From positions 1 to 44,834 of IMG/VR virus record IMGVR_UViG_3300032086_002777: a DNA stretch of 44,834 bases; one strand, 5' to 3'. The number at the start of each line of letters is the position of its first letter. Position 1 is the first letter of the stretch. The notes under the pieces are model-generated. The model saw only the letters and a list, made by a program, of their open reading frames with translations. It ran no database searches and was not told the origin of the DNA. The translations under genes and the position numbers were made by a program. Below are positions 15,066-42,707 of the stretch, one piece after another. Source of the DNA: a virus.

Positions 15066-16109
15066 ATGAGTTCTACAACCCAATTTACAACGTTTAGTGA
15101 TCTCTACCAAGGACTCCTGAAGGCGATCCGATCAGATCGCAGCAACTCAGCAACTGTAGAAGACGCCAAACGTTATATCAACACAGCACTCTTAGACATG
15201 CACGTAGGCTTCGCAGAGAAAGTACCTTGGGCATTGCGTGACTATACATTCACTACAAAAGCTACTCAAACATTTACCATAACTGTACGCGGTGTAGCAA
15301 CAGCACCGAATGCAAATGGCGTGAACTCAAGGGAGTACACGATAGGATCATCCCCTGTACCTACTTTCAATGTTGGTGATAAAGTCACCGTCACTAGCTC
15401 ATCTGTACCAAGCAGTGTAGGCGAGGAAAGTGAGATAGCAGCCCCATGGTCACTTGCTGGTAGTGACTACAAAACAAGCATTTACTCCAGTGCCATCAGT
15501 GTAGACGATATAATTTTGGTATACCAAAATGAGATCGTACTACCAGATGACTTTATGCGAATCGCCAGCAGCACAGTACGTCTAGGCACACGTCAAATAC
15601 CTGTGATAGGCCGTGTAGAATTCAGACACCGTTTTGCCGGTGACTACTCACTTAACCGCCCTCAGTGCGCTACAATGATCGACACAACCGACATCGCACT
15701 TGGTTTAGACAACCGTAAGCTACGCGTACATCCGATCCCTAACGTTGTAGAACGTGGCCACCTAACGTATGTCACTAACCTTTTGGCTGTAGACGCTGCA
15801 GGTACATGGCTTACAGAGATGAGCGCCGATACTGACGTACCTATCGTACCGCTACGTTATCGCCATGCAATATTCTTCCATGCGCTGTACAACTGGTATC
15901 GTGACAAAAAAGATGACGTTCGATCTCAAGAAGCGAAGGCTGAATACGTTGAGATTATGAGCCGCATCACAAACGATACTGAGGCAGGTCAGAGCAACAT
16001 GAGCATCCGACCTTCTATTGGCCCGTACCGTGGCAAAGCAAAACGTCCTTATTCTCGCAGAGGCGGACGCTCTTATGACTTTGGTAGATTCGACAGGATG
16101 TATGATTAA
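15066..16109 (+). CDS. Head-to-tail adaptor / tail-tube-A-like protein (putative)
   Basis: Predicted ring that joins portal to nozzle. The N-terminal helical part (residues 5-60, with VEDAKRYINTALLDMHVGFA) and a C-terminal helix (about 270-305) flank an inserted beta domain (residues 60-150), a layout like podoviral adaptors such as P22 gp4 or T7 gp11. The extreme C-terminus is basic and Tyr/Arg-rich. It is translated just before the nozzle gene (start and stop share bases at 16109). Confidence 0.65.
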   Translation: MSSTTQFTTFSDLYQGLLKAIRSDRSNSATVEDAKRYINTALLDMHVGFAEKVPWALRDYTFTTKATQTFTITVRGVATAPNANGVNSREYTIGSSPVPTFNVGDKVTVTSSSVPSSVGEESEIAAPWSLAGSDYKTSIYSSAISVDDIILVYQNEIVLPDDFMRIASSTVRLGTRQIPVIGRVEFRHRFAGDYSLNRPQCATMIDTTDIALGLDNRKLRVHPIPNVVERGHLTYVTNLLAVDAAGTWLTEMSADTDVPIVPLRYRHAIFFHALYNWYRDKKDDVRSQEAKAEYVEIMSRITNDTEAGQSNMSIRPSIGPYRGKAKRPYSRRGGRSYDFGRFDRMYD

Positions 16110-17848
16110 TGCCAGCACGTAATGCCAAACCTATAATCACGTTCGCAGGTGGGCTAGGACTGAGCCAACCTGGGGGTGTCATTGCCGACCTTCAAAACCC
16201 GGTAATTGAGATACCTTACCTATTCAAAGCGAACAACGTACTCTTTCAAGACGGCAACTCGCTAAGAAAGATCGGTGGTGCGCTAATAGCGTCTACACTG
16301 ACATCACCTACACAAAACTTCGGTAAAATCCTTGCGCTACTCCCAGCGTCAGGTGGAGGCGGTGCTGTAGATATATGGACAGTCGTTGGTGGAGCTGACG
16401 GCGATGTCAAAGGTATTATAGGTTGGTACTTAGACTCACGAGGGTTTATAGCAGATCAATACGTACAACTCGACGGTGATGTGTCAAGGAACGCAGCAGC
16501 TGACAATTACTCAGTATGGACTTCAGTAGAGTTCGAAGGGTATACGATCATAATGTCAGACGACCCGAACATACGCCCTTCGCTAATCCAATTCACACCA
16601 AGTACGAGTATATATTCAATCTCTGTCTTAGATACAGCTGAGCCTGAGTTCCATATCGCAGCTGTGTACAAGAACAGACTTTGGACAGCAGGCAACCCAA
16701 CGAATCCTTCACGCTTGTACTACTCAGATCTATTTGACCCGACGGCTGGGTATTCTACAAATTTCGTCGACATAGACCCGTTCGATGGATCTGAGATCAC
16801 AGCAATCCATGTGTACAAAGAGACACTATTCGTATTCAAAGGACCGAACAAAGGGAGTATTCACAGACTCTCAGGCGCTACTCCAAGTACATTTGCGCTA
16901 AGCCCAATCTCCACATCAATAGGCTGTGCCGGTCCGAACGCGATCGCAGACTTCGCAGATGATGTCATGTTCTTAGATACCGACGCGAACTTGAGAACAT
17001 TATCAACAACCCAGAATTTTGGTGACTTTGAGACAGCTGTACTTACGGACCCTATTCGAGAGTTGATTGACGCTGCAGTATATAAATCAGAGCTAAAGTA
17101 CACCACGATAAGTGCAGACACTGAGAACAGCAGAGTATGGGTACAACTACCTACAGGTGAGACTATACTGGACCGCCTATCAGTCGTTGTGGATTACAAA
17201 CAAGGGATCAAACTCACAACAGTGGACTACATAAAAACCGCATACGTTGTACCTTCAAGGTCAACAGTATCTGCGCTTGGCCGGTCAAGACTCATGGCAG
17301 TCACACCGGACTACTTATATACAATGGATGAAGTAGGCAAAGAGCGTATAGAGACTTTTGTGTCAGGATCAGTGACAATTCAATCAGAGGCGTATAACGC
17401 TCAAATTGAGACACCTTCGATCAAATTTACACCTGCGTTTGGGCATAACAACATCTCTAAAGTCAGCGCGTCAGTACAGCACATCGCGAAGCAGACTGAT
17501 ACTCCAGTCGGAGCATGTAGCCCGTTTGACCCGAACGTGGACATCACATTCAGATGGCAGCGCGATACAAGTGAGGTAGAAACGACAGCTCTATCTGCAA
17601 CAGCCATGTCAAGACTTGGCTCAGTATGCTCAGGTGAGACGCTCCCGTCTGATGGGTCTGTGTTCACACTAGATGCCTCAAGGTTAGGCGGTGCGAAGAC
17701 GATGGAAGTCTACGCAGAGCTTGAAACATCGGACTTTAGACGTATCACGTTCATGTTCGAACAAGGTGGCTTAAACGAAGGACTTCATGTACACTCATTT
17801 TCAGTAGTCATTGGTCAGGACGACACAGGTAGCACGGAGAACTTATAA
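16109..17848 (+). CDS. Tail nozzle protein, beta-propeller type (putative)
   Basis: Tail conduit below the adaptor, analogous to P22 gp10 or T7 gp12. The 579-aa chain is almost all beta, with repeated propeller-blade-like units (for example residues 190-270 with YKNRLWTAGNPTNPSRLYYS, and LFVFKGPNKGSIHRL) and an oligosaccharide-fold-like insert near 410-500. Order and size after the adaptor fit. No adhesion domain is seen, so receptor binding is left to the following fibre gene. Confidence 0.75.
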   Translation: MPARNAKPIITFAGGLGLSQPGGVIADLQNPVIEIPYLFKANNVLFQDGNSLRKIGGALIASTLTSPTQNFGKILALLPASGGGGAVDIWTVVGGADGDVKGIIGWYLDSRGFIADQYVQLDGDVSRNAAADNYSVWTSVEFEGYTIIMSDDPNIRPSLIQFTPSTSIYSISVLDTAEPEFHIAAVYKNRLWTAGNPTNPSRLYYSDLFDPTAGYSTNFVDIDPFDGSEITAIHVYKETLFVFKGPNKGSIHRLSGATPSTFALSPISTSIGCAGPNAIADFADDVMFLDTDANLRTLSTTQNFGDFETAVLTDPIRELIDAAVYKSELKYTTISADTENSRVWVQLPTGETILDRLSVVVDYKQGIKLTTVDYIKTAYVVPSRSTVSALGRSRLMAVTPDYLYTMDEVGKERIETFVSGSVTIQSEAYNAQIETPSIKFTPAFGHNNISKVSASVQHIAKQTDTPVGACSPFDPNVDITFRWQRDTSEVETTALSATAMSRLGSVCSGETLPSDGSVFTLDASRLGGAKTMEVYAELETSDFRRITFMFEQGGLNEGLHVHSFSVVIGQDDTGSTENL

Positions 17849-19648: not shown

Positions 19649-20781
19649 TGGAAGACGGCGGCTTAAACAATGACTTTAATTTAGACCATCTCACACCAGA
19701 GGCACTGGATGCGGCGCAGGAAGCGCAGGATACATCGCGTTTAGATACTCTTGGCATTTCTGCCAAGCCTGGAGCTGAAGGCACACTCCCTGGGTTTGAC
19801 CCAAGCGGATCAGTATCAGCAACTGGTGAAGAAGCTGCTACTTTAGAGCAGTTGGTAGACATTAACCAGATACGTGATCTTGCAGATTTAAGTGAGGCGC
19901 AGTTTGCAGAGTTAGCGCCACTGCTAGATGCTGAGAAAAAACGACGTGCAGAAGCAGAGGCAGCAGCAGGCGGCCTAGCAGCACAAGGTCAACAGTTAGC
20001 AGCAGGTGAGTTGAGTCCTGAACAATTAGCACGACTAGATGAGATCGCGAAACGCTCGATTGACGTTGGTACATCTGATATAAATGCACAACTGACACGT
20101 TCACTTGAAACACTTCGTGAAGAGGCAGGCGCATCACGCGGACTGCGTTTTACAGATACACCGATATTTGACGTAGCGCAAGATGTAACCGTTGACGCTA
20201 ACCGCCAAGCCACGAACCTAATCAGCGGCATCCGTAGTGAGCAGCGTCAGGCAGAGCTTAGTCTACCATTCCAGTTAGCAGGTCTTACGTTAGATCAGCA
20301 AAACGTGCAGAACCAGTTAGCACAGCAAGCGTTCCAAAACCGTCTGCTACTAACAGGCCAAACATCTGACTTGGGACTGAACATCGCAGGTCAGACGATC
20401 GGCCCAGCAGAGTACTTACTTGGTCTGAAAGGCATCGACGCGAGCAAAGTGAAAGATCCAAGTTTCAGAGACAAACTAGAAACTGCGCTACTCACAGGCG
20501 GCGCGACGTATTTAGGCGGACTCTCAGACGAGACAGTCAAACATGACATCACTAAGTATGACGAGTCAAACGTACTTGAGAAGCTCAATGAGCTTGAGAT
20601 CCACACATGGCGCTACAATGAAGAGGAAGGCTTAGGCACTGATCTTCATGTTGGCCCTATGGCACAAGAATTCCAACGCGTGTTTGGCGTAGGTGATGGC
20701 AAGACAATCAGCCTTGTAGATGTAATGGGCGTCATGCTCGCATCTCAAAAAGCGTTAGCGAAGGAGCACTTAAATGGCTAA
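19648..20781 (+). CDS. Helical virion protein with C-terminal S74 self-cleaving chaperone domain, 377 aa
   Basis: Residues 1-285 are helical, acidic, Ala/Gln-rich and resemble an internal or ejection protein. Residues about 290-377 match the intramolecular chaperone (peptidase S74) domain: GLSDETVKHDI gives the Ser293-Asp cleavage point with Lys298 five residues on, followed by LNELEIHTWRYN, DLHVGPMAQEF and ISLVDVMGVMLASQKAL. The chaperone usually trims trimeric fibres and spikes, so its link to a helical protein is unusual. ATG 19648 follows GGAGGA and shares a base with the upstream stop; ATG 19633 is an alternative. Confidence 0.8.
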   Translation: MEDGGLNNDFNLDHLTPEALDAAQEAQDTSRLDTLGISAKPGAEGTLPGFDPSGSVSATGEEAATLEQLVDINQIRDLADLSEAQFAELAPLLDAEKKRRAEAEAAAGGLAAQGQQLAAGELSPEQLARLDEIAKRSIDVGTSDINAQLTRSLETLREEAGASRGLRFTDTPIFDVAQDVTVDANRQATNLISGIRSEQRQAELSLPFQLAGLTLDQQNVQNQLAQQAFQNRLLLTGQTSDLGLNIAGQTIGPAEYLLGLKGIDASKVKDPSFRDKLETALLTGGATYLGGLSDETVKHDITKYDESNVLEKLNELEIHTWRYNEEEGLGTDLHVGPMAQEFQRVFGVGDGKTISLVDVMGVMLASQKALAKEHLNG

Positions 20782-25019: not shown

Positions 25020-25412
25020 TTATTCTACTCCTAGCACTTCACCGCAGTCAGTGCAGCGTTTATAACCCCAAAGCGAGTCATCATTGAACTCAGTCTCTAT
25101 GTCAAGATGCTTACAAACTTCAGAGTCTTCTAGGATCGCCAGAACTTCACCTTCGCTCATCACGTACAGAGTCTCACCATCAAGTTCGACTTCGATCGGA
25201 CGTGCACCTTGGAAGTAAATGTTATCACCCGGCTTTACGAGTAACGGCACTAACTTACCATTCAACATACGACCGGCACCGGCCTGCACTACGGTGCCTT
25301 CGATGATTTTCTCAGTTGACGTGCCAGCGATTTCGATACCACCATCAGTCTTGGTCTGCGCCTTTTTAGGGCGCACTAAGATCCGATCATGGAGTGTCTT
25401 GAGACTACTCAT
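25020..25412 (-). CDS. groES-like: GroES-type co-chaperonin with C-terminal zinc-ribbon-like tail
   Basis: Residues 4-96 align well with GroES: LHDRILVRPKK, the mobile loop TKTDGGIEIAGTST (with IEI in place of the usual IVL contact), GEVLAVG-like GTVVQAGAGR, VKPGDNIYF and the closing MSEGEVLAILE. It should cap the host GroEL ring and may adjust it to viral clients such as the capsid protein, as T4 gp31 does. Residues 97-130 add a tail with Cys100, His102, Cys120 and Cys123 (CKH, then CTDCGE), a likely zinc site that standard GroES lacks. It overlaps the upstream 57-aa gene by 8 bases. Confidence 0.9.
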   Translation of the reverse strand: MSSLKTLHDRILVRPKKAQTKTDGGIEIAGTSTEKIIEGTVVQAGAGRMLNGKLVPLLVKPGDNIYFQGARPIEVELDGETLYVMSEGEVLAILEDSEVCKHLDIETEFNDDSLWGYKRCTDCGEVLGVE

Positions 25413-32334: not shown

Positions 32335-32897
32335 TACTTCGCCGCCTTCTTAATGTAGTGACGATGCAACGCGATCTGAGTGTGCACATCATCCAAAGCG
32401 TTGTGAGTTACGCCGCCATCTTTGATCGCTTTTGCTTTGGCATCCATACCAACGAAATTCTGCACGGTGCGCAAGTCACGTACTTGGTAGAACTTCCAAG
32501 GTACTTCGATGTCGAACTGAGCCATTAAGTGCTCTAAAATTGTGATGTCAAACGTCGGGCCTTGTGACCAAATCTCAGTTATGTCATGGCGTTTGATGTA
32601 ATCACTTAACGTTCTCAAGGCGATCTCGACAGGGACATCCTGGTTCGCAAGGATAGCACCTAGCACCGCTTTGGTATCACTATTTTTAAACCAGAACTTC
32701 ATCGTATCTTGAGAGATTGTACGACCACGCTGTATTTGCGATGGAGTATTTAATTTGAGATCTAACGCAGGCAGTGTCTTACCAGCGCCTTTGTCAGTGT
32801 ACGTATATGCTGCTGCTGCGATCTGGATAACTACCGAAGTCGTCGCAGTGTCAAGTGTCTCGATGTCGAGAGCAAGTGCGTTAGTGTATTTGGCCAT
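32334..32897 (-). CDS. DnaQ-like 3'-5' exonuclease
   Basis: DEDD-superfamily exonuclease. Exo I is ALDIETL (residues 9-15), exo II SQGPTFDITIL in the middle, and exo III HNALDDVHTQ near the C-terminus, so the DEDDh type (His then Asp) fits. It resembles phage 3'-5' exonucleases active on DNA or RNA. ATG 32897 follows GAGGATATTCC; the frame extends 34 codons upstream through the neighbouring gene without a site. The polymerase at 33985 also has an exonuclease domain, so this one may serve another task. Confidence 0.85.
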   Translation of the reverse strand: MAKYTNALALDIETLDTATTSVVIQIAAAAYTYTDKGAGKTLPALDLKLNTPSQIQRGRTISQDTMKFWFKNSDTKAVLGAILANQDVPVEIALRTLSDYIKRHDITEIWSQGPTFDITILEHLMAQFDIEVPWKFYQVRDLRTVQNFVGMDAKAKAIKDGGVTHNALDDVHTQIALHRHYIKKAAK

Positions 32898-33090
32898 CTG
32901 GAATATCCTCTTCAGGTGAGATCTCAACAGCAGCGACTGCCTCTTCTCTGTCTTTGTGTAGTGACACTTTAAACTGGAGTAACAGAGCGTGACCATCACA
33001 CTCTGCCACCGCTGCCAGATTTGTTACTTCAGTCGACTCGCAAAAATCCAGCAGAGCTTCGACGATCTCTTCTTGCGTAAAATTTGCCAT
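32881..33090 (-). CDS. Hypothetical acidic protein, 69 aa
   Basis: Begins MANFTQEEIVEALLDFCE; ATG 33090 shares its A with the TGA of the nuclease upstream and follows GGGAAGAAG. The acidic C-terminus (SPEEDIPDGQIH) includes the ribosome-binding site of the exonuclease. Function unknown. Confidence 0.55.
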   Translation of the reverse strand: MANFTQEEIVEALLDFCESTEVTNLAAVAECDGHALLLQFKVSLHKDREEAVAAVEISPEEDIPDGQIH

Positions 33091-33755
33091 CACTTCTTCC
33101 CGTAAACACATTGATCTTTGGTGGCTTCACACCAACCGCATAAATGGTTCTTACGCGGTGGCCAGTTGTTTTGCTCATTTGCAATTTGAATTAATTCAGC
33201 ACGCTCATTGAACTCATGCCAAATACCTTTGAATTGATCACGCTTATAAAGCGCATCACAAACTTTATTGTGATCTACAAATATAAACGCTGTATGTACT
33301 TCCTGCACTTCAGGATACAGCAAAAATATTACTGCAGCATACAGACGTAATTGGTCTGGCTTGTCACGCACCTTACCTGTCTTCCAGTCGTAGATGATCG
33401 CTTTCGAACCATTGACTGCCAGCACATCTAACTGCGCACGAAAGAAACAAGTTTTGGTGTCGAACCAATCACACAACTGCAGCTGCTCATTGAACGCGAC
33501 ATCACGCTCGCACTGTACTTGTGGATACTCTGCACGGATCGCTGCGACGATCGGAGCCACGTGTGCCAGTTCTTTTGGTAACGCCTCACCTAACAACGCA
33601 GCTTCCAACGCTGAGTGAATACGCTTACCACGTTTGGTAATTTCGTTTTCGATGAACTTAAAGTTCTCAGGTTTGAGAATATTTTTCAACTGAAATTGTC
33701 GAGGACATAACTCGAACGTTTCTAGTCGTGAGTACGACCATGCTAACTTACCCAT
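33090..33755 (-). CDS. Cas4/RecB-type iron-sulfur nuclease (PD-(D/E)XK)
   Basis: Predicted exonuclease of the PDDEXK_1 family. SYSRLETFELCPRQF (residues 7-21) contains Cys17. KRGKRIHSALEAAL holds the conserved His, AQLDVLAV the Asp, and IYDWKTGK the D-x-K motif, followed by QLRLYA. Three Cys near the end (LCGWCEATKDQC) complete a four-Cys cluster of the Cas4/AddB type. No CRISPR array or other Cas gene is present, so a role in phage recombination or end processing is likely. Confidence 0.9.
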   Translation of the reverse strand: MGKLAWSYSRLETFELCPRQFQLKNILKPENFKFIENEITKRGKRIHSALEAALLGEALPKELAHVAPIVAAIRAEYPQVQCERDVAFNEQLQLCDWFDTKTCFFRAQLDVLAVNGSKAIIYDWKTGKVRDKPDQLRLYAAVIFLLYPEVQEVHTAFIFVDHNKVCDALYKRDQFKGIWHEFNERAELIQIANEQNNWPPRKNHLCGWCEATKDQCVYGKK

Positions 33756-33988
33756 TATAACTCCCTCATCTCACTATCTTTGAGCGCACTCATTAGAACC
33801 GCTTCACCTGCGTGCATCTTGCATAAAGGCGCGTCGTCTACCATAAAATGTGCTGACCTACTGCATTGACTTTCATCCACCATGTGCTGACTTCTTGCGA
33901 ATCTATGCTCGTGTGTAGATGTCTTTCCACACCGCTGCTTTCTGAAATTCAAAGTACCTAGCTCATATGCGATCTTAGTAACCTTCAT
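33755..33988 (-). CDS. Hypothetical zinc-finger-like protein, 77 aa
   Basis: Contains QCSRSAHFMVDDAPLCKMHAG, with two Cys and two His in a zinc-finger-like order, after a basic N-terminus. It ends SEMREL, the same residues that end the DNA polymerase gene just upstream, because the DNA of both 3' ends is duplicated. It starts in an ATGA overlap with the polymerase stop. Function unknown. Confidence 0.6.
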   Translation of the reverse strand: MKVTKIAYELGTLNFRKQRCGKTSTHEHRFARSQHMVDESQCSRSAHFMVDDAPLCKMHAGEAVLMSALKDSEMREL

Positions 33989-35862
33989 AACTCCCTCATC
34001 TCACCCCAGTTCGGACCAACTTGGCAGTCCCAAGGCAGTGGAAACGGTGGTTGGAATCCCCATACTTCTTTGTATGGTAGATTGTTAAGTGTCTCACGCA
34101 TCTCTAACAATTTCGAGTCTGGCATGTCTTCATCTACATAACCAAACAACGCATCATGTAAGTCGAACGCGTATTCAAATTCATTTGGATAGGCACGCGT
34201 CAACACCGCTACACCTAACTCCTTCATATCCGCACCAGTGCCTTGGATTGGATGATTGATCGCACTGGACTCTGTGCTCCACTTACGATCACCTGTCCAC
34301 ATGCTTAAATAAAATCGACGGCCACCAAGTGACTCTGCATAACCTAAATCTGTAGCACGTCGAATTGCATCTTTCCAATACTGCTTAACACCTGGGAACG
34401 TATTGTGGTACGAACGCTGCCAGTCTACTACTGTCATAAAGTCTACGATCATACCGTACTGCACTCGTGCTTGAATGCGCTGCTTCTTAGCGCCGATGCG
34501 GTACTGGTTAGATAAGTTATTGAACTTACCTTGATAGCGAAAGCCGTGAGCACCAACGACAGCCTCGTTGCCTTTCGCTTTTAACTGCATGAACCCTTCA
34601 TATGAGATGCCTGCTAACTGCGCTCCCATGTATGAGTGGATGTCCTTGTCTTCTTTAAAAATTCTAGTCATCGCTTCTTCTTGAGCCATGATCGCCATGA
34701 ACCGATTCTCTTGGCCGCTGGCATCAAACTCAACTAACTTTTTACCCGGCGGTGGTAAAACTAATTTGCGCAACTCTTTGTTACGAGGCCATTGGTGAAG
34801 AGCGCACCCAGTCTTGAACTTGTTCTTGATCTTGCCTGAGTATGTCATCCTACCAGTATAAGTTGCGAACAACTTAGGTGCTGGATGTAGGTAGGCTGAC
34901 TGCAGATATTTGGATGCGCCCTGTGGAGTTTCTATAAACTTCGTAAGCTGAGTATTCAGCTCCCGCCAGCGCAAGATGTCGAGAACTTGTTCATGATTAT
35001 CGGCGAGGTACGTGAGTGCGGCCTTATCCGTTGCAGGCGCACCTTTTGGGGTAAAGTTTTTACACTCGAATCCCCACGTATCGTAAAGTAAGGTAGCAAG
35101 CTGCTTCGGACTTCGTAAAATCTTACTTGGTCGCCAAGCAGCGATCGCACTATGTACGGAATTAGGATCATTCAATACTCCTAGTTTGCTTTCAAGTTCG
35201 CGCATCTCAAGTCGAGTCGGCTGTGACATCTCCTCGCAACGCGCAACGTCAATTCGAATACCATTGAACCAAGCTTTGGCATTAGGCCACAAGCACATAC
35301 CTTCAACCGGCGCAGTTCGTTTTTGTTTTGGTGTGAGCTGTTCCCAACATTTGACAGCTACTCGTACAGTCGCATACGCATCCATCGCAGCACGGTCGGT
35401 CCAGTACTTAGCGTTCTCGCCTGCTGCATGGCCTGCCTTTTTCATTTCGATGAACGCTTCAGCCCATGACTCATCACCAAGCCAGTACTTAACAGCAGCG
35501 CCTAAGCTCCAGCTGTGTGTACCCATCTCTGTGATCTGTGAGTTCTTAACCCACTTCCATAAGTGCATGGCGTCGATGTGTTCGAACTGTCCCATGTCGT
35601 GGCCGTCTGCATATAAGAACGCGAGGTCAAAGATGCCGTTAAACCAAACTAACATTGAGCCGCGTGACTTTAATTCTGCGAGCAGGTCGGCTGCAGCAGT
35701 ACGTGTGTACGCGATTGTCTTGGATCGACCATCAACATCAGAGACTGAGATGTCTGTGATCACAGCTTCACCTGACGCCACACGCCAAGGTTGAAGTGCG
35801 TACTCGTCATGGCCAGCCACAGTTGACTTTGTTTCGATGTCTATGCCGATCCAGTTCTTCAT
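33985..35862 (-). CDS. polA-like: DNA polymerase, family A, with 3'-5' exonuclease domain
   Basis: Replicative polymerase, 625 aa. Exo I is GIDIET (Asp8, Glu10) and exo II FNGIFDL (Asp79). Polymerase motif A is FDASGQENR (Asp380, with the Glu five residues on). Motif B is RYQGKFNNLSNQY (Arg442, Lys446, Tyr454), with Leu450 where E. coli Phe762 stands. Motif C is LHDALF (His569, Asp570), where Ala replaces the usual Glu after HD. There is no 5' nuclease domain. It has an unremarkable ribosome-binding region and a 3' end that doubles as the next gene's ribosome-binding site. Confidence 0.93.
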   Translation of the reverse strand: MKNWIGIDIETKSTVAGHDEYALQPWRVASGEAVITDISVSDVDGRSKTIAYTRTAAADLLAELKSRGSMLVWFNGIFDLAFLYADGHDMGQFEHIDAMHLWKWVKNSQITEMGTHSWSLGAAVKYWLGDESWAEAFIEMKKAGHAAGENAKYWTDRAAMDAYATVRVAVKCWEQLTPKQKRTAPVEGMCLWPNAKAWFNGIRIDVARCEEMSQPTRLEMRELESKLGVLNDPNSVHSAIAAWRPSKILRSPKQLATLLYDTWGFECKNFTPKGAPATDKAALTYLADNHEQVLDILRWRELNTQLTKFIETPQGASKYLQSAYLHPAPKLFATYTGRMTYSGKIKNKFKTGCALHQWPRNKELRKLVLPPPGKKLVEFDASGQENRFMAIMAQEEAMTRIFKEDKDIHSYMGAQLAGISYEGFMQLKAKGNEAVVGAHGFRYQGKFNNLSNQYRIGAKKQRIQARVQYGMIVDFMTVVDWQRSYHNTFPGVKQYWKDAIRRATDLGYAESLGGRRFYLSMWTGDRKWSTESSAINHPIQGTGADMKELGVAVLTRAYPNEFEYAFDLHDALFGYVDEDMPDSKLLEMRETLNNLPYKEVWGFQPPFPLPWDCQVGPNWGEMREL

Positions 35863-36204
35863 TTATAAGTGACCTGACGATTTTAAAAGTTCAACAATTT
35901 TAGTGGCGTACTCGTGAAGGTCACTGTCTGTATGACCTTTTTTGCGGAGCGCGTCTCGTAACAGCAGGTGAATTGGCTCATACGTACCTTTGTGGTAGAA
36001 GTTAGGAATTTCTTCAGCCATCATATCGACAGCTTCGCCCAAGCCATCTGCAGTGGTGATAGCTACTAACCGATCTAAGTTATCCTCTACATACATGCGG
36101 AGGCTCATAACATTGAGTTCAGCTGTGGACCGTGCCGGTTGCTTTTTCTTTTTGGATGCGAACAGGCCGCGCAAAACATAATACGCTAATTTAAAAATAC
36201 TCAT
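35863..36204 (-). CDS. Hypothetical protein, 113 aa
   Basis: Has a hydrophobic N-terminus (MSIFKLAYYVLRGLFAS) followed by KKKKQ, suggesting a membrane anchor with the body inside the cell. The remainder is helical and acidic. It starts in an ATGA overlap with the membrane-protein gene and ends one base before the polymerase start. Function unknown; its neighbours include lysozyme-linked envelope genes. Confidence 0.55.
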   Translation of the reverse strand: MSIFKLAYYVLRGLFASKKKKQPARSTAELNVMSLRMYVEDNLDRLVAITTADGLGEAVDMMAEEIPNFYHKGTYEPIHLLLRDALRKKGHTDSDLHEYATKIVELLKSSGHL

Positions 36205-36497
36205 AATTCTTGCACCTTAGCACAGTGAAATTTTACGACAGTCCCGTCAGGTAAGTTGAACTCTAACAGGCTGCCACCATCTTTACTGCAACGACGCATG
36301 ATCTCGTTGTACAGTACGTTTAAATCTGATACACATGCGTTCGCCATCAGCTTGACAACTTTGTCACACTGCTTAGGCCAGGGATTAGGTTCAACTGCGA
36401 ACACCTGGCGTGCGGCGAGCAGCATCAAACATACACACGCGAACGTGCCTAGACCGATCCAGATGCACTGGAATACTTGTGGCTTGGTGATTTTCAT
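36201..36497 (-). CDS. Membrane-anchored periplasmic protein, 98 aa
   Basis: Residues 9-34 form a membrane segment or uncleaved signal (FQCIWIGLGTFACVCLMLLA), possibly cut after VFA. The outer part has four Cys (about 44, 55, 70, 92) able to form two disulfides. It overlaps the lysozyme gene by ATGA, so it may help lysis, for instance as a spanin-like or lysozyme-modulating protein; the lack of a coiled coil argues against a classical spanin. Confidence 0.6.
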   Translation of the reverse strand: MKITKPQVFQCIWIGLGTFACVCLMLLAARQVFAVEPNPWPKQCDKVVKLMANACVSDLNVLYNEIMRRCSKDGGSLLEFNLPDGTVVKFHCAKVQEL

Positions 36498-36961
36498 AAC
36501 GTATAATCTCCGCGTAAGATCTCAGCGTTGCGCTCTGCGCGTGCTGGCAATTTCTTAGCGTACTTACTATCCAGTAGGTGGTACGCTGCCCACTCAAAGT
36601 TACCTGCACACATGGCAGCAACTGTTTTCTTGAATGAGAGTGCTCCATACACACCCATGTTGTAAGCCATATCTATGAGCACGACGCGCGCTTTTACAGC
36701 AAGTTGATCGTAACACTTGACGTTCGCACGTAATCGCTCGCGCACGTCGCGCACGTCGCGCTCTAAGACTTCGAAGGCATGTTCACGACTCCACAAAAGA
36801 CAGCTGTACTCTGGACAATCATCAGCTGGTTCGCCGTAATGCTCTTCGAGATTGTATCCAAACCCAATGTGCCAAACACCAAAGAGTTCATAAGGATGCG
36901 GTACGAAGCCCTCGTTAGCTACGAGAGATTTCAATGCTAAGTAAAGTACTAAAGTTTTCAT
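36494..36961 (-). CDS. GH24 (T4-type) lysozyme-like protein with altered catalytic site
   Basis: The fold family is clear from LVANEGFVPHPYELFGVWHI and later LIDMAYNMGVYG and RAERNAEILRG. Glu17 matches the catalytic acid. The usual Asp is replaced or shifted (Glu25 or Leu26), and the usual Thr before IG-x-G is His31. In T4 lysozyme the engineered T26H change turns the inverting enzyme into a retaining transglycosylase-type one, so the chemistry here may differ. 155 aa is normal length. It lies in the leftward block, not with the late M15 enzyme. Confidence 0.8.
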   Translation of the reverse strand: MKTLVLYLALKSLVANEGFVPHPYELFGVWHIGFGYNLEEHYGEPADDCPEYSCLLWSREHAFEVLERDVRDVRERLRANVKCYDQLAVKARVVLIDMAYNMGVYGALSFKKTVAAMCAGNFEWAAYHLLDSKYAKKLPARAERNAEILRGDYTL

Positions 36962-36976
36962 AGTCAGTCCCAGTTG

Positions 36977-37097
36977 TAAAGTACATATGAAGCAGCTCGC
37001 TTAACAACCGTGACAGGCTGTATGTATTAGCATCAACTAAAACCCGGCGCTGTTCAGTGCGTGATGATCCAGGTGGAGCTGCTTCATATGTACTTTA
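36977..37097. repeat. Perfect 22-bp inverted repeat with 77-base loop
   Basis: The arms 36977-36998 (TAAAGTACATATGAAGCAGC, plus two bases) and 37076-37097 are exact reverse complements. They nearly fill the 133-base gap between the lysozyme start and the stop of the gene at 37095. A smaller stem (CATCA with TGATG) can form in the loop. It would fold into a long hairpin in the lysozyme mRNA leader, or it may be a small mobile-element-like unit. Confidence 0.85.
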
Positions 37098-37701: not shown

Positions 37702-38007
37702 TTACCCGCGAACTGAGTTAAGAGAATCTTTTAGCTCGTCCTTGACATCATCCAATGACTCTTCCAGATTTTCCTTAATCGCTTCAGCACCATCTTTGAT
37801 TGACTTGCCTAACGCTTCGGCTTCGTCGATCTTTTCCTTGGTACGCTCCTGAGCTTTGTCGATCTTAGCGTTGGTACGTTCTACCTCTGCGTCGATCTTT
37901 TCTGGCGTCAAACCACAGCCAGATAATAAAACAGTGAATGCAGCAACACTTAAAAATGCTGCATTCACTCGTGCGCTAAGAGTGCGCACTAAACTGGTTT
38001 CAAACAT
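37702..38007 (-). CDS. Lipoprotein with coiled coil, 101 aa
   Basis: The signal sequence ends in a lipobox, VLLSGCGL, giving a lipid-anchored Cys at about 31. The mature part (ERTNAKIDKAQERTKEKIDE, then LEESLDDVKDELKDSLNSV) is a regular heptad coiled coil like Lpp. It could be an outer spanin, a cell-wall linker or a superinfection-exclusion factor. ATG 38007 follows AGGTGATCG; a GTG three codons before is less likely. Confidence 0.75.
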   Translation of the reverse strand: MFETSLVRTLSARVNAAFLSVAAFTVLLSGCGLTPEKIDAEVERTNAKIDKAQERTKEKIDEAEALGKSIKDGAEAIKENLEESLDDVKDELKDSLNSVRG

Positions 38008-38019
38008 GACGATCACCTG

Positions 38020-42290: not shown

Positions 42291-42707
42291 TTAAAATTCA
42301 AACACCACACCAGCATTCACAACTGGGCCTAGTAACGTCACTTGTACGAACGCGTAGCGCAGTGCGACTACTGGCGCGAATATCAGCCCCTTATAGTGGG
42401 TGTCAATGTGGCCTTCATAGCCTTTGATGATCACAATGGCAGAGTCCACATCAATCGGTCCAGCTGGTACAGTGTACCCCAAACCTATGAACTCTGATTT
42501 GGTATAGTGCGAGTTCGTAAACGTGCCGAACGTGACAAAATCGCCGTCGTCGTTGGTTGTTTTAAACTGGATAAAATCATTATCCTCATTATAGTTGGGG
42601 CTATCATTGTGATAGTGCTCAGTCCATACGCCGATGTTGATGGATTCGCTCGCACTGCACGCGCCGCACGCTACAAACATAGTTAAGGCTAGGATTAAAT
42701 TTTTCAT
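42291..42707 (-). CDS. PagP-like outer-membrane beta-barrel protein (putative)
   Basis: A signal peptide (MKNLILALTMFVACGACSA) is followed by a 118-residue beta-rich chain ending in Phe (GVVFEF), typical of outer-membrane barrels. The order TEHYH, YNEDND, FTNSHY, then SEFIGLGY and KGYEGH matches the PagP lipid A palmitoyltransferase pattern, where His33, Asp76 and Ser77 act; here His31 or His33, Asn65 and Ser66 would be the counterparts. The similarity is visual and the active site is not exact. Modification of lipid A to block superinfection is one possible role. Confidence 0.55.
   Translation of the reverse strand: MKNLILALTMFVACGACSASESINIGVWTEHYHNDSPNYNEDNDFIQFKTTNDDGDFVTFGTFTNSHYTKSEFIGLGYTVPAGPIDVDSAIVIIKGYEGHIDTHYKGLIFAPVVALRYAFVQVTLLGPVVNAGVVFEF

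Follow-up and report, generated by a model that had tools for sequence, protein, structure and literature searches.

Does a GH24 lysozyme that carries a histidine at the place of its catalytic threonine still work like the rest of its family? This question is raised by a lysozyme gene of a bacteriophage, in a 44,834-base virus record (hereafter the window). According to the available text of PMC2976769, Glu11 is the acid, Asp20 the base and Thr26 the water-positioning residue of GH24, and changing Thr26 to His turns T4 lysozyme from an inverting into a retaining enzyme. The available text of PMC8228626 gives Glu-x8-Asp/Cys-x5-Thr for all published structures of this endolysin family. The original prediction had described the window protein as a GH24 lysozyme with Glu17, with His31 in place of the threonine and with the aspartate shifted or replaced.

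The window encodes a lysozyme with the predicted fold of T4 lysozyme

The gene and its active-site positions are as follows.

36494–36961, minus strand: GH24 (T4-type) lysozyme of 155 aa, with His for the catalytic Thr and without an Asp20 equivalent (ORF, Pfam, PHROG, alignments and model)
36911–36913, minus strand: codon of Glu17 (T4 Glu11, general acid), read from the nucleotides; Glu in 154 of 160 motif-free loci, the other 6 being gaps
36878–36892, minus strand: shortened hairpin loop Y24-E-L-F-G28, in which the place of Asp20 is lost (sequence, alignments and the turn of the model)
36869–36871, minus strand: codon CAC of His31 (T4 Thr26; sequence and alignments), CAT in the syntenic relative L463
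36539–36541, minus strand: codon of Arg141 (T4 Arg145 by the 8-sequence alignment)

The ORF begins MKTLVLYLALKSLVANEGFVPHPYELFGVWHIGFGYNLEE... and gave a single match, within its own virus record. Its assignment to GH24 was borne out by Pfam, PHROG and structural comparisons. The protein matched PF00959 with an E value of 6.8e-8 and 33.3 bits, the cut-off being 22.3 bits, and this was the only family returned by a Pfam scan with E up to 1. It also matched endolysin PHROG 7 (E 3.1e-9). An AlphaFold2 model was obtained with a 66-row alignment, after removal of 12 aberrant rows and of those that came from annotated phage records; the mean pLDDT was 95.6 and the pTM 0.88. Foldseek returned T4 lysozymes and their fusions with E values of 2e-7 to 1.2e-6 among the matches listed. 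In VIA-align, the model aligned with Z of 17.7–18.7 over 141–151 residues (rmsd 2.1–2.8) among the matches listed, typically with model residues 7–155 on residues 1–160 of T4 lysozyme. The model is a confident prediction of a T4-lysozyme-like fold.

No relative was found when the viral contigs were searched directly with the window protein. Among annotated phage records, the best matches to the DNA polymerase were those of Acinetobacter phages such as Effie and of Xanthomonas phage Xp15, at 32–34% identity.

His31 stands at the place of Thr26, and Asp20 has no counterpart

In an 8-sequence alignment whose rows were not chosen by motif, E17, G18, Y24, G28, I32, G33 and G35 were invariant. Because these flanking residues fix the register, E17 corresponds to E11 of T4 lysozyme and H31 to T26, with Y24 and G28 matching Y18 and G23. 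The same register was obtained in the 66-row alignment, although its rows were picked by a motif demanding most of these residues. In the model, Glu17 is the last residue of helix 2–17, the place of the general-acid Glu before the hairpin, whose strands (20–26 and 29–33) are joined by a tight turn at the shortened loop.

Between Y24 and G28 the window enzyme has three residues (E-L-F) and T4 lysozyme four; because the loop is one residue short, Asp20 is without a counterpart. Neither Asp nor Cys was found at position 20, where the window enzyme offers Glu25, Leu26 and Phe27 and L463 offers Gln, Val and Arg, and His31 stands at position 26 instead of Thr or Ser. The Asp that the original prediction described as shifted or replaced is better described as lost, the hairpin having become one residue shorter. 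We also looked for an alignment that restores Asp and Thr. The flanking invariant residues fix the register, and neither residue was restored by any of the three alignments made. Glu25 keeps the six-residue distance to His31, but its candidacy as a stand-in for Asp20 is weakened by the Gln at that place in L463, the nearest relative. The column of Arg141 held Arg in 30 of 33 His rows (the other 3 being gaps) and in all 71 Thr/Ser rows.

The invariant flanking residues of the 8-sequence alignment thus uphold the earlier reading that the general-acid Glu occurs together with a His at fold position 26. Like T4 lysozyme and canonical GH24 enzymes, the window enzyme combines this fold (Z about 18) and PF00959 with the catalytic Glu, the frame of Tyr and Gly and a counterpart of Arg145. 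Unlike them, it has His for Thr, lacks Asp or Cys and reads Glu-x13-His instead of Glu-x14-Thr. Judged by sequence and predicted fold, it is a member of GH24 outside the canonical catalytic class. It shares its fold with engineered T4 T26H, as well as the places of Glu and His within it, whereas it is a natural enzyme without Asp20 and T26H is a single change that keeps Asp20. The comparison with T26H in the original prediction was apt, T26H being described as retaining in the available text of PMC2976769, but the window enzyme is not simply T26H because Asp20 is also absent.

The closest relative found retains Glu and His

The lysozyme of L463, about 48–49% identical to that of the window, was the closest relative found. 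L463 is a 6,176-base contig in an Emcibacter MAG and is syntenic with window positions 32454–36967, the exonuclease and DNA polymerase gene being 67–68% identical. Its lysozyme retains Glu and His, and because QVR replaces ELF, no acidic residue is kept in the loop. The 12 residues GVWHIGFGYNLE are identical in the two enzymes; 8 of their 12 codons differ, all synonymously, and the His codon is among them. Since L463 was first found by a pattern demanding E, G, Y, G, H, I, G and G, those eight identities alone prove little, but identity at seven other residues (V, W, F, Y, N, L and E) is independent of the pattern. Chance or a sequencing error behind His31 is unlikely given the same His in this relative.

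When 385 genomes of L463's class were searched with the protein and without a motif, L463 came first (E 1.8e-46), the next full-length matches being 32–35% identical. There were 17 matches, 3 of them unreadable; 13 of the 14 readable ones had Thr and one, L463 itself, had His. Among the 32 genomes of L463's family, the sole match was in L463's own genome. As no Thr relative closer than L463 was found in the 385-genome search, the comparison supports, but does not prove, selection for His in the lineage of the window and L463.

Frequency of His and of the short loop in GH24

GH24 was surveyed for His with scan patterns demanding EGx5Y, HIG or TIG, and two Gly; therefore the invariance of those residues in the 66-row and tree alignments is partly by construction. 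His at the T4 spacing occurred in at least 120 viral contigs, and all 120 were GH24 by HMM; position 20 was Asp in 116 of them and Gly in the other 4. A codon-restricted scan for T4-spaced His returned 20 contigs, and because 18 of these were among the 120 listed, the total is estimated at about 133. Judged by sequence, most of these contigs encode natural counterparts of designed T26H, with Glu, Asp and His at the three places. A DNA pattern for the short loop and His matched 15 IMG/VR stretches, of which 13 were GH24, and 16 stretches of the genome collection, where L463, L449 and, more weakly, L451 look like GH24. The residue directly before the Gly was Asp or Glu in 9 of the 13 short-loop His contigs, and is Phe27 in the window and Arg in L463. 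Two His GH24 lysozymes of normal spacing, L036 and L041, have Gly for Asp20 and represent another route to the loss of Asp in His enzymes.

For Thr, the short loop was found in 16 stretches (15 of them GH24), 5 of which kept Asp six residues before Thr. T4-spaced Thr gave at least 120 matches in a scan covering a codon fraction of 0.0059 (about 0.6% of combinations), and the total was estimated from this at 20,000 or more, as a product of codon frequencies that 0 of 79 strict Thr loci met in full. On these contig counts, which are not independent, the ratio of short Asp-less loops to T4-spaced loops is thus much higher among His enzymes, at 13 to about 133, than among Thr enzymes, at 15 to an estimated 20,000 or more; the short loop occurs in roughly one of eleven His enzymes and in at most about one of a thousand Thr enzymes. 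The HMM check of the scanned rows is partly circular because profile A3 contains some of them; Pfam independently recognised 9 of 10 His proteins and missed L022.

Samples gathered without the motif gave a second view. Among the 80 loci nearest the window by profile, none of the 70 that were parsed had His (68 Thr, 2 Ser). Across all 160 motif-free loci, position 11 was Glu in 154 and a gap in 6, and position 26 was Thr in 134, His in 21, Ser in 2 and a gap in 3; these 21 His loci overstate His, as their query, A2, consisted of His-clade rows only, and some were already in the T4-spaced His scan. Positions 20 and 26 could be read in 153 of the loci, as Asp/Thr (71), Cys/Thr (59), Asp/His (21), Cys/Ser (1), Asp/Ser (1) and Cys/His (0). 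In 14 annotated phage records (one a prophage), no lysozyme had His at the place of Thr26: the motif scan read 13, with Thr in 12 and Ser in that of ZP9, and the fourteenth, the Aegir lysozyme (L322), was missed by that scan and is a non-His row of the tree set.

Cys20 accompanied Thr in 65 of the 120 matches listed (Asp20 in 55) and was found in 59 of 153 motif-free loci. With His, it was found in 0 of the 120 T4-spaced matches listed and in 0 of 21 motif-free loci, the contigs being partly shared. In Thr enzymes Cys20 was as common as Asp20, above the few Cys examples in the available text of structural papers. A Fisher test of His against Cys20 gave p 0.08 in 70 dereplicated rows. On undereplicated or estimated counts, the Fisher values are descriptive only: p 2e-21 for loop length and p 9e-30 for Cys20, the latter from rough counts of 117, 0, 46 and 74, where the printed counts are 116, 0, 55 and 65. 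An independent-pairs test of loop length against His had too few supported pairs on a poorly resolved tree.

His26 seems to have arisen several times

We mapped the residues on a tree built from 104 dereplicated rows with the motif masked. Between Thr and His, 15 changes were required, of which supported branches force 6; for the 13 rows that have His but neither Asp nor Cys20, about 10 changes were required and 3 were forced. The tree is poorly resolved, and its row set is biased by gathering, omits short-loop Thr rows and lost L016 to the HMM filter. The window and L463 formed a pair (support 99) adjoining the Thr row L186 (support 84); a position of the window inside the large marine His group was unsupported. 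Close relatives inside the marine group differ in having His or Thr, which might indicate that the switch matters little. The sequences suggest several natural origins of His26. Our reading is that GH24 has a recurrent natural variant whose His replaces Thr26 and would make Asp20 dispensable. The case is larger than one protein, and on these comparisons the window enzyme belongs to the sub-kind of natural His GH24 that also lost Asp20. In the literature searched, mostly without subscription papers, we found no report of a natural His at the place of Thr26 and no activity, product or structure data for a natural His26 enzyme.

A putative retaining mechanism and its alternatives

The window enzyme is most likely an active muramidase, and altered chemistry is the favoured reading of His31. 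The non-hydrolytic role that the original prediction had raised beside it is disfavoured because Glu17 and Arg141 are kept, Glu being present in all 154 motif-free loci with a readable column. We infer a catalytic role for His31. As a tentative first choice, argued by analogy, we propose that this endolysin is a retaining muramidase running on Glu17, His31 and Arg141, with His31 as the nucleophile and Asp20 dispensable. In this proposal, the three residues would form the active site instead of Glu, Asp/Cys and Thr. His31 would take the place of the water-holding Thr26, so that Asp20 becomes dispensable and the loop that carried it could shrink. His31 would attack C1 of MurNAc from the alpha face as Glu17 protonates the leaving sugar, and a short-lived glycosyl-imidazolium would be formed on His31. 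Glu17 would then activate water (or another sugar), and a product of retained beta configuration would be released.

The reaction is plausibly retaining by analogy with designed T26H. In that variant, His has reportedly been proposed as the nucleophile of a retaining reaction, and Kuroki 1999 and Hiromoto 2017 are the key T26H papers; PDB entries 1qt8, 5xpe and 5xpf are T26H. The coupling of His with the loss of Asp20 would be expected if His does chemical work that is otherwise Asp20's. Against the retaining proposal speak the absence from the window enzyme of Asp20, which designed T26H keeps, and the alternation of His and Thr among very close relatives. In addition, the Asp or Glu before Gly in 9 of 13 short-loop His contigs could replace Asp20 there, though not in the window enzyme or L463. 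The wider claim, that nature repeatedly evolved retaining GH24 lysozymes with a His nucleophile and that some of them, the window enzyme included, then dropped the Asp, is more doubtful still.

It is rather unlikely that the window enzyme is an inverting muramidase in which His31, as the general base, places the water alone, replaces both Asp20 and Thr26 and yields alpha products. Loss of Asp20 in His enzymes would be expected equally if His were the base, and the available text of PMC2976769, in which Asp20 is the base and Thr26 positions the water, fits this scheme; however, the same text reports the only studied His enzyme, designed T26H, as retaining. We favour the retaining scheme over the general-base scheme because this only studied precedent known is retaining.

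Cleavage by Glu17 alone, in the style of lytic transglycosylases or goose-type enzymes, with Asp and Thr unneeded and His only shaping the cleft, is improbable. The AP3 endolysin and goose lysozyme are described without a catalytic Asp in the available text of PMC5674055, but His is found again in the closest relative and in other, separate lineages, which is not required of a passive residue. The AP3 endolysin (DUF3380) resembles the window enzyme as a lysozyme-like phage enzyme lacking this Asp; unlike it, AP3 belongs to another domain family, and the available text of PMC5674055 reports no His in the Thr place.

We give very little credence to a degenerate or non-hydrolytic GH24 fold that serves binding or regulation and leaves lysis to another protein, which would suit the absence of two of the three canonical residues and the amidase-like PHROG match of the virion protein at 16109–17848, but is opposed by the retention of Glu17, Arg141 and the glycine frame, by the preservation of the active-site stretch in L463 under synonymous change, and by the PHROG scan, in which the lysozyme gave the sole endolysin match among 46 window proteins (a subset of the ORFs).

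According to the available text of PMC2670981, members of a glycoside hydrolase family essentially share one stereochemical outcome, with the mixed family GH97 as an exception. If natural retaining His enzymes hold true, GH24 would be a family of mixed stereochemistry. Natural T26H-like enzymes, with the loss of Asp20 accompanying His, would make a protein-engineering result testable on evolution's own variants, and natural His GH24 enzymes may be a source of new endolysins or of transglycosylating lysozymes with which glycans could be synthesised.

Neighbouring genes and elements

The gene next to the lysozyme is the following.

36201–36497, minus strand: 98-aa protein with one N-terminal hydrophobic segment, its start overlapping the lysozyme stop (ORF, counterpart in L463)

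This protein may be a lysis partner. It had no PHROG match, and comparison with solved structures gave two chance-level matches (E above 1). Its counterpart near the L463 lysozyme lies one gene further on and has the same C-terminal KVQEL. A 104-aa protein at 37702–38016 (minus strand) has a lipobox-like stretch, LLSGC, matches an Rz-like spanin weakly (E 0.0013) and is possibly an outer-membrane lysis protein. The 579-aa virion protein at 16109–17848 (plus strand), with amidase and internal virion protein PHROG matches, is possibly a second wall-acting protein.

Between the lysozyme gene and the next upstream gene lies a perfect 22-nt inverted repeat (36977–36998 and 37076–37097), its arms 77 nt apart. 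In the predicted fold of the minus-strand RNA, three small hairpins are enclosed by a long stem, with an energy of -53.8 kcal/mol (z -6.4). The region 36977–37097 had no Rfam, tRNA or phage-record DNA match, and no inverted repeat was found at the matching place in L463. Elsewhere in the window, 42291–42707 (minus strand) matched a PagP-like lipid A acylation PHROG (E 1.5e-11), an unusual cargo gene, and 25020–25412 (minus strand) encodes a GroES-like co-chaperonin (E 9.3e-18).
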